From Polyangiaceae bacterium (GTDB lineage: Bacteria > Myxococcota_A > Polyangia > Polyangiales > Polyangiaceae), in assembly GCA_016933275.1 (NCBI GenBank), contig JAFGBI010000234.1, positions 1 to 64,000 on the forward strand: 64,000 bases of DNA, written 5' to 3'. The stretch's first letter is position 1. Each line of letters starts with the position of its first letter. The notes under the pieces were generated by a model. It searched no databases. It saw only the letters and a list, made by a program, of their open reading frames with translations, and was not told the origin of the DNA. Shown here piece after piece: positions 7,664 to 58,464 of this stretch. The translations under genes and the position numbers were made by a program.

Positions 7664-7686
7664 CCGATCCCGACCGCGGCCGGTCC

Positions 7687-7996
7687 AAAGCAGCAATCAG
7701 GTTGATTGCTGCGTCAAACCGATCGCCTAGCCCGGCGGACCCGGAACCAAACAGGCCATCAGCGGCCAGCGGTCAGGCACAACACGGAGACCCTGATTGC
7801 TGACGCCCGGTTGCTGATGGCCACCAGAACGTCGAAGAACATTCTGCCGGATCGGCTCAGAATCCCACCGCCAACGGACTGGGGCACCGACCCGGCAGCA
7901 GACCTCGTCGGTGGCGGCGCTGGAAACACGCCCTCACCTCGCACAGAGGCGTCCTTTGCGCAGCCGTTGCGGTGGGCAACCCGATCGGTGTCCTAG
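7687..7996. repeat. dispersed intergenic repeat, copy A (long form, + orientation)
   Basis: Left end AGCAGCAATCAGGTTGATTGCTGCGTCA, right end GGGCAACCCGATCGGTGTCCTAG; internal ~160-bp segment shared with copy B. Confidence 0.85.
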
Positions 7997-21850: not shown

Positions 21851-22203
21851 CTAGAGCAGCAATCAGGTTGATTGCTGCGTCCAATCAACAACCCAAGCCG
21901 GCGGAGCCGGAACCAAACAGGCCAGGCCATCAGCGGTCAGCGGTCAGCGTTCAGGTAGAACGCGGAGACCTTGATCGCTGACGCCTGATTGCTGATAGCC
22001 ACGAGAACGCTGAGAGATTTTCTGCCGGATCCGGTCAAGATCACACCGCCAAGGGACTGGAACACCGAACCGGGAGCAGATCTCGCCAGAGGCGCCGCTG
22101 GAAGCGCGTCCTCGCCTCGCACGGACGCGTTTTCAGCGGCGCCGTTGCGATCGGCAACCTGATCGGTGGTCCACAGCTGCAATCAACCTGACAGCTGCGC
22201 TAG
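21851..22203. repeat. dispersed intergenic repeat, copy B (long form, + orientation; extra degenerate end on the right)
   Basis: CTAGAGCAGCAATCAGGTTGATTGCTGCGTC ... GGCAACCTGATCGGTGGTCCA followed by CAGCTGCAATCAACCTGACAGCTGCGCTAG (reverse-complement-like left end). Confidence 0.85.
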
Positions 22204-22348
22204 GGTCGAGGATCTCGGGATGTCGGTGTCGGGGCCTAGATCGAGGCGAAAGTCCGTGTCGATAATGGCGTGTCGACCGACGCGCTTCACCGCGGCCGCG
22301 CCCTCGCGCCATCTCGCCCGGCGGCCCTCCCCGCGTATACTCCGCGAC

Positions 22349-36107: not shown

Positions 36108-36220
36108 CTAGAGCGCCGATCAGGTTGCCAACAGCAACGGCAGCGCTAGAGAGATCTGCTGCCGGTTCGGTGCTCTAGGTTGTTGATTTGACGCAGCAAT
36201 CAACCTGATTGCTGCTCTAG
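36108..36220. repeat. dispersed intergenic repeat, copy C (short, - orientation, central hairpin deleted)
   Basis: CTAGAGCGCCGATCAGGTTGCCAACAGCAACGGCAGCGCT|AGAGAGATCTGCTGCCGGTTCGGTGCTCTAGGTTGTTGATTTGACGCAGCAATCAACCTGATTGCTGCTCTAG. Confidence 0.88.
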
Positions 36221-36280
36221 CTCCAGCCCCGCAAATCGGGGGCCGACTGCAGCGCCGGCTTCGACACCAACGGGCGGTTC

Positions 36281-36312
36281 TGACGCCGCAGTCAACCTGA
36301 TTGCTGCTCTAG
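36281..36312. repeat. dispersed intergenic repeat, copy D (solo end hairpin, - orientation)
   Basis: TGACGCCGCAGTCAACCTGATTGCTGCTCTAG, near-identical to the end of copy C. Confidence 0.8.
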
Positions 36313-38268: not shown

Positions 38269-39768
38269 CTACCCTCCCGGCACCACGGCGTTCGTGAGGT
38301 CGCTCCGGCGCTTGCCGGCGAGGTACTCGGCGATGTTGCCGAGCGTCGTCTCGGCGATATTGGCAAGCGCCTCCTCCGTGAGAAACCCCTGGTGGCTGGT
38401 GATGATCACGTTATTGAACGTCATCAGGCGGGCGAGTAGGTCGTCGGTGATCACCCGGTCGGAGCGATCCTGGAAGAAGTACTCGCTCTCCTCCTCGTAC
38501 ACGTCGAGCCCGGCCGCGCCGATGTGCCCGGTCTTGAGCCCCCGCACGAGGGCCGTCGAGTCGATGAGACCGCCGCGGCTCGTGTTGATCAGGACCACGC
38601 CGGGCCGCATCCGCTCGATGCGCTCGGCGTCGACCAGGTGGTGGGTGGCGGGAGTGAGCGGCGCGTGGAGGCTGACCACGTGCGAACGGACGAGGAGCTC
38701 GTCGAGCTCGACCAGGGAGACCCCGAGCTCCACCGCGGTCTCCGGGCGGGCGAACGCATCGTGGGCGAGCACGGTCATGCCAAAGCCACGCAGGATCCGG
38801 GCGAGGCACTGCCCGATCCTGCCGAGACCGACCAGCCCCGCCGTGCGCCCGTGGAGATCGAAACCAACCAGGCCCGCCAGGCTGAAGTTGCCCTCTCGAA
38901 CCCGACCGTGAGCACGGTGCACCTTGCGGTCCAGGGCAAGGATGAGCGCCACCGCATGCTCGGCCACGGCGTGGGGCGAGTAGGCGGGGACTCGGGTGAC
39001 GGAGAGCCCAAGGCGAGCAGCAGCGTCGAGGTCAACGTTGTTGTAGCCCGCGCAGCGCATGGCGATGAGCTCGACCCCGGCCAGCGATAGCCGCTCGAGC
39101 ACGGGAGCACCCAGGTCGTCGCCGACAAAGGCGCAGACCACGCGGAACCCATGGGCGAGCGCGGCCGTCGTGGGGCCGAGTCGCGCTTCGAGGTAGTGCA
39201 GGCGCATGCCCGCCGGGACGCGAGCGTCGAAGCTCTGCCGATCGTAGGGCTTGGCGTCGAAGAACGCGATGCCGATGCGTCCGTCCGGGAGCGCAGCGGC
39301 CTCCAGGGTGGCGATCCGTTGGTTCTTGGCGCGCACCTTCGCGCCGAGGTGCGCGAGGATCGCGCGGCCGAGCTCGGCGTGCGAGCCCAGCAGGACAAGG
39401 AAATCCTGCCGAGCAACGGTGACCAGGACCGACTCGACGCGAGCGCGGAGCGTCGCCGAGCGCCCCTGCTCGAGCGCAACGCTGGTCAAGCCGCCGACGT
39501 CGCCGACGCCGAGCAGGCGGAGCGGTACGTCCGCGCCCTGATCCGAGCGCTTGGTGGCTTCGACCACCCCCCGCGCCACCACGAACACGTAGTCGCTCGG
39601 CTCTCCCTCGCGGAAGACGAGATCCCCAGCCGGAATGACGCGCCGCTCGGCCACAGCCGAAATGGCAAGCCGGGTCGCCGACGTGAGACCGGCAAACACC
39701 TCGGCTCGATCGAGCAGGTCCAGGGTTGAGTCGGCCATTTCGGACCTCGTCGGGGCTTCGGGCGTCAT
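38269..39768 (-). CDS. cyclic-nucleotide-binding domain fused to D-lactate/2-hydroxyacid dehydrogenase
   Basis: N-terminal CAP-ED-like AEVFAGLTSATRLAISAVAERRVIPAGDLVFREGEPSDYVFVVARGVVEATK; C-terminal DRQSFD...GYNNVDLDAA..GRTAGLVGLGRIGQ...LINTSRGGLIDSTALVRGLKTGHIGAAGLDVYEEE..FFQD, characteristic of the LdhA-like subgroup. Confidence 0.9.
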   Translation of the reverse strand: MTPEAPTRSEMADSTLDLLDRAEVFAGLTSATRLAISAVAERRVIPAGDLVFREGEPSDYVFVVARGVVEATKRSDQGADVPLRLLGVGDVGGLTSVALEQGRSATLRARVESVLVTVARQDFLVLLGSHAELGRAILAHLGAKVRAKNQRIATLEAAALPDGRIGIAFFDAKPYDRQSFDARVPAGMRLHYLEARLGPTTAALAHGFRVVCAFVGDDLGAPVLERLSLAGVELIAMRCAGYNNVDLDAAARLGLSVTRVPAYSPHAVAEHAVALILALDRKVHRAHGRVREGNFSLAGLVGFDLHGRTAGLVGLGRIGQCLARILRGFGMTVLAHDAFARPETAVELGVSLVELDELLVRSHVVSLHAPLTPATHHLVDAERIERMRPGVVLINTSRGGLIDSTALVRGLKTGHIGAAGLDVYEEESEYFFQDRSDRVITDDLLARLMTFNNVIITSHQGFLTEEALANIAETTLGNIAEYLAGKRRSDLTNAVVPGG

Positions 39769-39849
39769 CGGCTCGGAAGAGTCATGCGTCCACCGCTAGG
39801 GGATGGCAAGCATCGAACCGGCCCTTCGTCTCGAGCTTGCCGCGATCCT

Positions 39850-40010
39850 GCCTCAGCGAGGCGCAGTGGCTGCTCGTGATCCGTCGTCATTGGGGCGTCG
39901 AAACCGCCCACCAGATCCTCGATGTTGCCCTGGCCGAGGACGACCGCCCGTGGATCGAGGCGAACCCGAGAGGTGCACTGGCGTCGCAATCCCTCGTCGC
40001 CTGGCGCAGT
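39850..40010 (+). pseudogene. transposase C-terminal remnant (ISAs1-like)
   Basis: SEAQWLLVIRRHWGVETAHQILDVALAEDDRPWIEANPRGALASQSLVAWR resembles the [VI]RxHWGxE...LD.aF.ED region of DDE transposases; no intact N-terminal part. Confidence 0.65.
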
Positions 40011-40346
40011 CGAGTAGGGGCGCCCTTGCTCGTGGCTGAGGACCCCGCTCACAGAACCGGGCTTGCGGGCCGCACATCCGGCTCTTCGGGATGCCGACGT
40101 CCTCGGATCGTCCGCGGGCAGCATGCTCGCCGCGCGCGGCCGGTGAGGCGAGGAGTCCGGCCCCGCCTACCCCGTCCGGCCCCAGATCCCAAAGGCTCGC
40201 GCAGCGAGCCACCGATCGAGATGGTGCGCGGCTCCGGCACCGTTGCGACGAGGTTCGGGCGACGGTACCCTTCGGCACGGCTGGCAGATCGTAGACCAAC
40301 GCCCTGGGCGCGGAGCCCGAAGGGGCCACGAGACGGGATCGATGCC

Positions 40347-43127
40347 ATGACCACTGCACGCGATGGCGGGGGTGCGACGCGTGACCGCGACGGCAGGGTT
40401 CTGCGCTTCGGCGCGGTGCCCCTCGGCGTCGTCCTCACGCTGGGCTGCGGCAGGTCGAGCGTGGTCGAGGAGTATCTCCGGACGACGGGGGCGATCGCCG
40501 GGGCTCCCACCGGATCTGTTGGCGCGAGCCCGACAGCAGGTGGCGCGCCAACCACGGGGGGAGGGACCGGGGGGCAAGCGAGCGGCGGCGTGGCCGTGGG
40601 GAGCTCGACCGGCGGAATGACTGCCGGCGGGGTCGCGCCAGGCGGGACCGTGGCCGCTGGTGGCCACGAAGGCGGCAGCGGTAGCCAGGCCGGGGGCGGC
40701 GGGTTCGTGATCCACGCCGGCGCCGCCGGCGAGGCGGGGACGCCGATTGGCGGGGGGACCGCGGGGATTGCCAGCGGAGCGGTTGGAACGGGTGCGGCGG
40801 GCGAAGCGGGTGCGGCGGGCGGAGGCAACGTCCCATCGTGTCCCGCCGGCACCTTCGAGCACGACGGGGATCCCAGCACCCATTGCGTGCCCTGGACGAA
40901 CTGCGAACGAGGCAGCCACGTCGCGAGCGAGGCGAGTCCATCGAGCGACCGGACCTGCCGCTTCTGCACCGACGGCTACAGCACGGAGACCAACGCCGCG
41001 AGCTGTCTGCCCTGGAGCAACTGCCCGACGGGCACGACGGTGCCGCGGACCTCGACGGCGGACGCTCCCTGCGCCGCCGGGATCGCTCGCGTGGCGGCGG
41101 GCGGTCGCAGCAGCTGCGTGCTCCGTCACGACGGCACGGTCGCCTGCTGGGGCCTGCTCCGCGGCTGGCCCGCCGAGTGGGAGACGAGCGCGATTCGCAC
41201 CGCGCCCGTGACCGTGCCTGGCGTGACCAGCGCCACGACGATCGCCACGAACGACGGCCGCACCTGCGTGCTCCTCGAGGACGGCACCGTCGCCTGCATC
41301 GCCGACGGCGCCTATGCCATCGTCCCCGGGATCGCCGGCGCGGTCGCGCTCGACACCGGCGACGACCATTCCTGCGCCCTGCTGGCAGACGGCACCGTCG
41401 CCTGCTGGGGCGCTAACGTGTACGGCGAGCTCGGCGACGGGACCACGACCCACAGCTCCACTCCCGTGACCGTGGTCGGGCTCGATGACGCCATCGCCAT
41501 CACGACCGCCGAATTCCATTCCTGCGCTCTACGCGACGGCGGCACCGTCGTCTGTTGGGGCGCCAATGCCTACGGCGAGCTCGGCGACGGGACCACGACC
41601 CACAGCTCCAGTCCCGTGACCGTGGTCGGCATCACCGCGGCCACTGCGATCTCCAATGGCTCCGCCCACACCTGCGCCGTGACGGGTGACGGGTCGGTGT
41701 CCTGTTGGGGCAACAACGGGAATGGCCGGCTCGGCGACGGGACGAGCGCGAACAGCTCGGTTCCGGTCACCGTGATCGGCCTCTCCGAGATAGCGGACGT
41801 CTCGGCCGGCTTCGCCCACACCTGCGCCCTCGGCCGCGACGGCGCCGTCGCCTGCTGGGGAACCAACCTGGAGGGACAGCTCGGCGACGGCACCTACCGG
41901 ACGAGATCCACCCCGGTCCCCGCCGTCGGCGGAGTCGCCGCGGTCTCTGCTGGCGGGTTCCATACCTGTGCCTTGAACCAAGATGGCACGGTGAGCTGCT
42001 GGGGGAGCGGAGACACCGGCGAGCTCGGAAACGGCTGCTCCGTGCAGACCGCTGCCCCCACCAAGGTGCTGGGCCTCTCCGCCGCCATCGCGATCGCGGC
42101 AGCCGCGTATCACACTTGCACCGTCCTCTCGGAGGGTGAGGTCACCTGTTGGGGTGACAACGGCCTCGGCCAGCTCGGCGTCGAGGCCAAGATGGCCAGC
42201 GACGTGCCGATCACCATCCCTGGGCTGGCGGGAGTATCCACGATCACGGCAGGCCACCTCCACACCTGTGCCTTGCGGCAGAACGGCGGGGTCGCCTGCT
42301 GGGGGCACAACGGACACGGTAAGCTCGGCGATGGAACGACGGTGGACAAGGACACGCCGGTCGCCGTCGTCGATCTCGACGACGCCACCACGGTTGCCGG
42401 TGGCAGCGAGCACACCTGCGCCTCGCGCGCCAACGGCGCGGTCGCCTGCTGGGGGAGCAACGGTTTCGGCCAACTCGGCGACGGCTCCACCACGGACCGC
42501 CTGACGCCCGTGGCCGCCTCTGGCGTCGACGACGCGATCGCGGTCGCCAGCGGCAACGGCCACACCTGCGCCCTGCGAAGGGTCGGCTCCGTCGCCTGCT
42601 GGGGCAACAACGACTCGGGACAGCTCGGCGACGGAACCACCGTGGGCAGCCCGGTGCCGGTCGCGGTCGGTGGTTTGGGTGATGCCCTTGCCCTCGCAGC
42701 CAACGGCGCACACACCTGCGCCCTGCATCGGGGTGGGGCGGTGGTCTGCTGGGGTAGGAACGACTCGGGACAGCTCGGCGACGAAACCGGCGGGGACAGC
42801 CCGACGCCCGTGGCGGTCATCGGTGTCGACGACGCGACCGCCCTCGACGCCGGACCGGCTCACACCTGCGCAGCGCGCCGTGACGGCTCGGTCGCCTGTT
42901 GGGGCAACAACGATGCGGCCCAGCTCGGCGACGGTTCCACCACGGACCGCAACCACGCCGTGGCCGTCGATACCCTCACCGCCGCCATCGCCGTGACCAC
43001 CGGCACCTCCCACAGCTGTGCGCTTCGCCAGAACGGCGAAGCCATCTGCTGGGGGAACAACGAGTTCGGCCACCTCGGCTGTGGGGTCATCAGGTCCAGT
43101 ACTCCGCTGCCCATGCGCTGGCCATAG
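40347..43127 (+). CDS. RCC1-repeat lipoprotein with Gly/Thr linker and Cys-rich TNFR/EGF-like segment
   Basis: VVLTLGCGRSS lipobox-like, long G/T/A linker, CPAGTFEHDGDPSTHCVPWTNCERGSHV...CRFCTDGY..CLPWSNC, then >10 repeats of CALxxDGxVxCWGxNxxGQLGDGTT. Confidence 0.9.
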   Translation: MTTARDGGGATRDRDGRVLRFGAVPLGVVLTLGCGRSSVVEEYLRTTGAIAGAPTGSVGASPTAGGAPTTGGGTGGQASGGVAVGSSTGGMTAGGVAPGGTVAAGGHEGGSGSQAGGGGFVIHAGAAGEAGTPIGGGTAGIASGAVGTGAAGEAGAAGGGNVPSCPAGTFEHDGDPSTHCVPWTNCERGSHVASEASPSSDRTCRFCTDGYSTETNAASCLPWSNCPTGTTVPRTSTADAPCAAGIARVAAGGRSSCVLRHDGTVACWGLLRGWPAEWETSAIRTAPVTVPGVTSATTIATNDGRTCVLLEDGTVACIADGAYAIVPGIAGAVALDTGDDHSCALLADGTVACWGANVYGELGDGTTTHSSTPVTVVGLDDAIAITTAEFHSCALRDGGTVVCWGANAYGELGDGTTTHSSSPVTVVGITAATAISNGSAHTCAVTGDGSVSCWGNNGNGRLGDGTSANSSVPVTVIGLSEIADVSAGFAHTCALGRDGAVACWGTNLEGQLGDGTYRTRSTPVPAVGGVAAVSAGGFHTCALNQDGTVSCWGSGDTGELGNGCSVQTAAPTKVLGLSAAIAIAAAAYHTCTVLSEGEVTCWGDNGLGQLGVEAKMASDVPITIPGLAGVSTITAGHLHTCALRQNGGVACWGHNGHGKLGDGTTVDKDTPVAVVDLDDATTVAGGSEHTCASRANGAVACWGSNGFGQLGDGSTTDRLTPVAASGVDDAIAVASGNGHTCALRRVGSVACWGNNDSGQLGDGTTVGSPVPVAVGGLGDALALAANGAHTCALHRGGAVVCWGRNDSGQLGDETGGDSPTPVAVIGVDDATALDAGPAHTCAARRDGSVACWGNNDAAQLGDGSTTDRNHAVAVDTLTAAIAVTTGTSHSCALRQNGEAICWGNNEFGHLGCGVIRSSTPLPMRWP
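41090..43115 (+). repeat. ~150-bp tandem coding repeats (RCC1 blades)
   Basis: Recurring TGCGCC...GTCGCCTGCTGGGG...GGCCAGCTCGGCGACGG; two units near 41421 and 41571 are almost identical over ~65 bp. Confidence 0.85.
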
Positions 43128-55724: not shown

Positions 55725-55829
55725 GATATCTCCGAACGCCAACGATGGCCCGGACTGGGCCAATCGGACCGAAACCCTGGTCGCACGGATCCCGAGCAGG
55801 TATCCCATCCGGAATCCCCCGAGATCCCC

Positions 55830-55986
55830 AGAGCAGCAATCAGGTTGATTGCTGCGTCAAATCAACAACCTAGAGCACTGAACCGGCAGCAGACCTCGCC
55901 AGAGGCCGCGCTGGAAACGCGTCCTCCCCTCGCACAGACGCGTTTCCAACGCTGCCGTCGCTGTTGGCAACCTGATCGGTGCTCTA
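55830..55986. repeat. dispersed intergenic repeat, copy E (short form, + orientation)
   Basis: AGAGCAGCAATCAGGTTGATTGCTGCGTCAAATCAACAACCTAGAGCACTGAACCGGCAGCAGACC...GGAAACGCGTC...GACGCGTTTCC...GTTGGCAACCTGATCGGTGCTCTA. Confidence 0.9.
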
Positions 55987-56058
55987 TTAGATCAGGGGCG
56001 TGGGGTTGGGTCCGCTTGACCCGCTCGCGCGGCTACTGTTAGCTTCGCGCGAACCGCC

Positions 56059-58165: not shown

Positions 58166-58305
58166 TGCCGACAACTCGGTTAGTGTGCCGAGAAGGACCC
58201 AATCATCCAGAAATCTGTGTCCCGTTCCGAGAACGCCTCGATTTCGGCCGAGCAGCCACACTAGCGGGCTGGACACCCCGGCCCAACTTCCCGTTCCCGC
58301 TAGCC

Positions 58306-58464
58306 AGAGCAGCAGTCAGGTTGATTGCTGCGTCATATCAACAACCCAAAGCACCGAACCGGCAGCAGATCTCGCCCGAGGCGCCGTTGGAAACGTACCC
58401 TCGTTGGGCATGGGTACGTTTGCAGCAGCGCTGTTGCTGTTGGCAACCCGATCAGTGTTCTAGT
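58306..58464. repeat. dispersed intergenic repeat, copy F (short form, + orientation, covarying stem)
   Basis: AGAGCAGCAGTCAGGTTGATTGCTGCGTCATATCAACAACCCAAAGCACCGAACCGGCAGCAGATC...AAACGTACCC...GGGTACGTTT...GTTGGCAACCCGATCAGTGTTCTAG. Confidence 0.9.

Follow-up and report, generated by a model that had tools for sequence, protein, structure and literature searches.

A covarying, CTAG-integrating palindromic element of about 160 bp in Polyangiaceae and other Myxococcota

The central hairpin of a repeat family in the 64,000-nucleotide stretch of Polyangiaceae DNA analysed here (the window) is one part, designated P2, of a 160-bp multi-copy element. The layout of the element is fixed at about 160 bp, its ends are conserved, and its stems vary in sequence and yet stay paired; it inserts at CTAG, is dispersed in intergenic DNA and has relatives across many Myxococcota. 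The covariation of its stems at the level of lineages is genuine, and the CTAG-targeting mobile palindrome is real and widespread; it is probably also undescribed, no paper joining myxobacteria, MITEs and CTAG having turned up in the open-licence literature. The reading favoured here, at slightly better than even odds (about 0.55), is a non-autonomous REPIN/MITE-like mobile palindrome that integrates at CTAG and whose fold is needed for mobilisation. A first-pass annotation of this DNA had described the repeat family and the central hairpin of its copies E, F and B; the P2 arms of all three lie where it had placed them, the exact coordinates being recovered, and they pair despite their different bases.

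Anatomy, copies and insertion sites

The element reads CTAG-hairpin H1-linker-P1-P2-P1'-CTAG. Its outer ends are an imperfect, CTAGAGCANCNATCAGGTTG-like inverted repeat enclosing a non-coding unit of ~160 bp. The consensus arms of H1 are GCAGCAATCA and TGATTGCTGC with a GGT loop, and the linker between H1 and the left strand of P1 is GTCAAATCAACAAC. Copies E and F are both 160 bp long and 79% identical; copy F begins with CCAG, a decayed CTAG, and ends with CTAG. Copy E folds better than 200 of 200 dinucleotide shuffles as DNA (z=-6.7), as does copy F as RNA (z=-3.3). The H1/P1/P2 fold is predicted for subfamilies A and B of the host and for the consensus sequences of its relatives G027 and G009, whose P2 stems share little sequence, and is predicted again, with different stem sequences, for the relatives in G028 and G002; predicted energies run from -64 to -109 kcal/mol, and the reverse strand folds equally well. 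In G027 the left and right terminal motifs shift jointly, from ATCAGGTTG to ATCAGTTTG in most copies, as is expected if the ends are recognised. The relatives in G029 and G115 are P1-type palindromes with terminal repeats of 20-24 bp and no H1, which makes H1 dispensable in some branches. Long forms of ~310-410 bp carry extra modules internally and no insert of transposase size. The module lies between H1 and P1 in the two window examples (where it measures ~150-160 bp) and at L045, L051, L060, L069, L092 and L093, and contains short GGTCAGC-type tandem repeats; at L055, L082 and L090 it is the P2 loop that is extended instead.

Table 1. Coordinates of the element, its parts and associated sites (window positions unless a locus is named)
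Feature	Position	Strand	Basis or remark
Copy F, complete (160 bp; divergent subfamily B)	58304..58463	+	nhmmer/BLAST alignment to copy E, 85 genomic copies
H1 hairpin of copy F, left-end palindrome	58309..58331	+	Predicted fold; pair 8-26 between genera
P1 of copy F, left strand (CTAGAGCACCGA in the consensus)	58346..58357	+	Predicted fold, alignment
P1 of copy F, right strand, also the right terminal repeat (TCGGTGCTCTAG in the consensus)	58452..58463	+	Predicted fold, alignment
P2 (reported central hairpin) of copy F	58380..58432; arms 58391-58400/58412-58421	+	Predicted fold, exact positions
Copy E, complete (160 bp; common subfamily A)	55828..55987	+	
P2 hairpin of copy E	55904..55956; arms 55913-55923/55937-55947	+	Predicted fold, exact positions
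Copy B, long form	21851..22174; P2 arms 22091-22111/22123-22143	+	Left end 21851-21894, extra module, P1-P2-P1' unit 22056-22174
Degraded long form	7685..7996	+	Left end ~7685-7730; P1-P2-P1' unit ~7873-7996
Element with P2 hairpin deleted, ~112 bp, ends intact	36109..36220	-	
Solo left-end (H1) fragment	36277..36312	-	nhmmer E=0.0007
Weak candidate for another left-end fragment, adjoining copy B	22166..22205	-	BLAST E=0.003; nhmmer E=0.53
Empty-site cases	L011:6094, L090:8959, L087:13848, L059:3718, L054:5960		
Loci of the CTAGCGCGGGACAGGCCCGCAACCC repeat, host genome (examples)	L054 ~5960, L061 ~16224, L078 ~7433		

The host genome comprises 8.25 Mb in 464 contigs and yields 652 first-look candidates. 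The 1.32 Mb of it (about one sixth) that were examined directly, as stretches, hold 141 matches. Of these, 86 are near-full and 85 could be used, and 68 have a length of precisely 160 bp. The 85 include one wrongly joined long form (window 7685-7840) and may include a few others among the copies with low scores. Contigs C1-C20, picked independently of the repeat, carry 43 full copies per Mb, which extrapolates to ~355 copies; the genome-wide number is about 350-650.

To find empty insertion sites, the two flanks of every copy were fused and the fused sequence was sought in the host genome. The empty sites thus found, within other repeats, have a single CTAG (or a one-base variant of it), whereas in occupied sites a CTAG stands on either side of the element. 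Tandem copies have one CTAG in common (L060, L077 and in G002). CTAG stands at both ends of 40 of the 85 copies, and an identical altered tetramer at both ends of none. One CTAG in the empty site and two in the filled site fit target duplication and an element carrying its own CTAG equally well. CTAG is scarce outside the elements, at 0.49 per kb in the 1.32 Mb as against 2.9 expected from base composition. A second repeat of ~220 bp with inverted ends CCTGGATTTCGCGCCTC ... GAGGCGCGAAATCCAGG, present at L065:8604-8821 and at least 15 other loci of the host genome, is itself a target of the 160-bp element, which inserts at a CTAG inside it, and another CTAG-bordered repeat (CTAGCGCGGGACAGGCCCGCAACCC...) adjoins the element at a common CTAG. 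Also in the window is a tandem repeat in coding sequence (41111-43055; period 150 bp, ~10 units), inside a 1133-aa ORF (39726-43127) that looks like a putative RCC1-type repeat protein.

With genes assigned by simple GC3-based calling, 76 of the 85 copies overlap called genes by less than 10%, compared with 26% of random placements. Between co-directional genes, 15 copies have the orientation of their neighbours and 15 the opposite one; gaps between convergent genes are mildly enriched (28 of 74, binomial P=0.009, uncorrected for multiple testing).

Among relatives, a DNA search of 59 genomes finds the element in G009 and G027, and a covariance model matches 9 of the order's 184 genomes, host included, all of one family. 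Same-length relatives of the 160-bp element are present in other genera. The exact terminal 20-mer CTAGAGCACCGAACAGKTTG occurs in 70 stretches from 19 assemblies (GTDB r220), all labelled Myxococcota or Deltaproteobacteria but for a single Gemmatimonadetes contig, in keeping with the ~1 chance match that we estimate for a collection of this size. Plausible end pairs in these stretches lie 104-322 bp apart, mostly 141-184 bp, and the P1-type elements among them have long predicted hairpins with no recognised H1; these wider elements may be related to the host type over their whole length or at the ends alone. The viral contigs and plasmids searched contain no match to the element. In G027, copies stand at the ends of contigs C357, C322, C533, C300 and others, so that the repeat appears to break the assembly.

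Covariation of the stems

A 14-sequence alignment spanning three genera has 94.9% of its cells paired. Both sides are changed in 49 cells, as opposed to 16.3 after shuffling and 1-13 when the register is slid; two-sided changes occur in 13 of the 45 pairs, 9 of these in P2. Pair 8-26 of H1 (alignment A1) goes from A-U to G-C between genera. Since shuffles ignore relatedness, changes were also reconstructed on a tree of 95 copies and redistributed over its branches. On this measure, compensatory events falling on one branch number 11 in P2, where 4.4 are expected (P=0.0075; 0-4 in slid registers); the counts for H1 (3 against 1.4) and P1 (2 against 3.0) are not significant. In an independent set of 15 ungapped copies from G028, with the structure taken from that genome's own consensus, 91.7% of cells pair, whereas the null reaches 69% at most. 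In H1 of this set there are 3 compensatory events where 0.4 are expected (P=0.008); in P2, additional Watson-Crick types number 11 compared with 4.4 (P=0.001) and same-branch events 5 compared with 2.7 (P=0.085). These P values are nominal, uncorrected across several helices and measures. In a self-made, R-scape-like pairwise test, a P2 pair (81-125) ranks first among all column pairs, with E=0.12, so that no single base pair is significant alone. Covariation beyond phylogeny, on whose presence in aligned copies the first-pass annotation had let its proposal depend, is thus supported at the level of helices, for P2 and for H1 of G028, and is not significant for single base pairs.

The annotation had also proposed that pairing rather than primary sequence is under constraint. 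That is supported for lineages and genera; for individual copies it is not. One-sided changes in P2 of the young subfamily A comprise 31 transitions that keep the pair, 29 that break it and 36 transversions. The median divergence in subfamily A is 0.034 in P2 and in unpaired positions alike (means 0.043 and 0.063), and individual copies have no wobble preference. It thus seems that pairing has little or no influence on how inserted copies decay, and that the constraint on pairing acts on the spreading lineage rather than on each copy.

A live rival to fold-dependent mobilisation, although an unlikely one in our estimation, is neutral templated correction, in which one arm of a quasi-palindrome is copied from the other by template switching at the replication fork, so that both change at once and pairing is not selected at all. 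Lone double changes in near-identical copies (A-T to C-G at L064, G-C to A-T at L065, G-C to T-A at L061) are what such copying would leave, a G028 H1 pair that is found as A-T, C-G and G-C fits as well, and so does the indifference of individual copies to wobble pairs. However, templated correction should mend recent mismatches, and subfamily A has 103 one-sided changes against 14 two-sided ones; on its own it also leaves unexplained why the ~160-bp layout and the arrangement of P1 and H1 are kept across genera.

Search for a mobilising enzyme

No tested transposase family (Y1, Y2, DDE_Tnp_1, DDE_5, rve) is seen in every carrier. Y1_Tnp is absent from G009, G028, G002 and G115, DDE_Tnp_1 from G028 and G115, rve from G002, Y2_Tnp from G028, G002 and G029, and PF13546 (DDE_5) from the host DNA examined; because the carriers are mostly draft MAGs, these absences are not proof. 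Element ends flank a gene at none of the 70 loci of transposase-family matches: L284, the locus of a DDE_Tnp_1 match in G009, holds an ordinary ~160-bp copy rather than a transposase bounded by ends, and L301 and L316 hold one degenerate end-like match each. Nor did any transposase turn up within a TIR-bounded element of 0.6-3 kb, and no parent IS with the element's ends is present in the 1.32 Mb of host genome, the 70 GTDB stretches or the 70 transposase-match loci. A RAYT was rejected as mobiliser, the only Y1_Tnp of the host (on contig C23; an IS200-like TnpA in our reading) having no element ends nearby and Y1_Tnp being absent from the four carriers named. The host's DDE_Tnp_1 matches, which look IS1634-like by sequence, were set aside as partners for lack of element ends at their loci, and searches for DDE_5, rve and Y2 partners gave none.

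These searches bear on a second alternative, an ordinary MITE of a DDE insertion sequence with CTAG duplication (IS5-, IS701- or IS481-like), for which the ends alone would matter and the palindrome would be a by-product. The IS5-, IS701- and IS481-like families use CTAG-like targets. Terminal inverted repeats, CTAG on both sides and the single CTAG of empty sites agree with this proposal, as do the 20-24 bp terminal repeats of the G029 and G115 elements; an ordinary double-strand DDE transposon would account for inverted ends and a duplicated CTAG no less well than fold-dependent mobilisation does. We nevertheless think it improbable, given that no IS with these ends occurs in the DNA examined, that DDE_Tnp_1, DDE_5 and rve are each missing from at least one carrier, that transposase-match loci lack the ends as a flanking pair, and that internal pairing is conserved far from the ends. 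Similarly doubtful is the broader proposal of phylum-wide CTAG-targeting hairpin elements mobilised through a folded single-stranded DNA or RNA copy by a machine outside the tested families.

A structured non-coding RNA (a regulatory or mRNA-end element) selected at each locus is very improbable, for although the predicted folds are very stable and convergent gaps mildly favoured, orientation shows no preference, pairing is not under per-copy purifying selection, the reverse strand folds as well, and copies insert into other repeats, one window copy lacking P2 altogether. At the gathering threshold, Rfam families gave only a tRNA in the window and none in 19 relative loci. The annotation had left open a folded RNA or single-stranded DNA: strand-specific structured RNA is the less likely of these, with no orientation bias, wobble preference or Rfam match to commend it, and single-stranded DNA during mobilisation fits better.

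Proposed fold-dependent mobilisation and known systems

Fold-dependent mobilisation would proceed as follows. H1 and the P1/P2 hairpins would form in single-stranded DNA, either the lagging-strand template or an excised strand; a transposase would recognise the hairpins, bind both ends and join the element into CTAG. Only foldable source copies would be propagated, and stems would therefore covary along lineages, each inserted copy afterwards decaying neutrally. The mobilising enzyme may be lost, may act in trans from elsewhere or may belong to another family. Counting against this reading are the failure to find a mobiliser in the DNA examined, the branches that do without H1 and the equal fit of the ends to a DDE transposon.

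The closest known behaviour is that of REPINs, in which the spacer keeps its length and its ability to form a hairpin and compensatory changes are frequent (Bertels and Rainey 2011, PMC3116915). Like the REPIN/RAYT (TnpA-REP, Y1 HUH) system, the element has a palindromic unit with conserved ends, a tetranucleotide at the foot of a hairpin and a spacer that is constant in length, can form a hairpin and shows compensatory changes, and it occurs outside genes in hundreds of copies. It differs in its tag, which is CTAG and not GTAG/GGAG or CGTC (GTAG/CGTC being the REPIN/REP tag; PMC3733652), in its ~160-bp size, separate H1 and CTAG on both ends, and in the lack of a Y1_Tnp (RAYT) gene in four carriers. 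With bacterial MITEs (PMC10969869) it shares short length, absence of coding capacity, terminal inverted repeats, intergenic location, an apparent target duplication and a stable predicted folded transcript, and it fits the loose definition of a MITE; here, however, no parent IS was found, the host is GC-rich, the internal stem covaries and length is almost fixed. Palindromes of the ERIC/RU-1, RU-2 (168 bp) and Correia type are similar in size, in having multiple intergenic copies and in being MITE-like (PMC2759123, PMC2229807); they belong to another host phylum and are likened to the element by description, not by sequence or target site.

If fold-dependent mobilisation is true, Myxococcota carry widespread, apparently undescribed mobile palindromes that depend on their fold and are REPIN-like without the REPIN transposase. 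These repeats appear to break assemblies, and they shape intergenic DNA, and their hundreds of copies per genome in several genera constitute a natural data set for weighing selection on hairpins against templated correction of palindromes.
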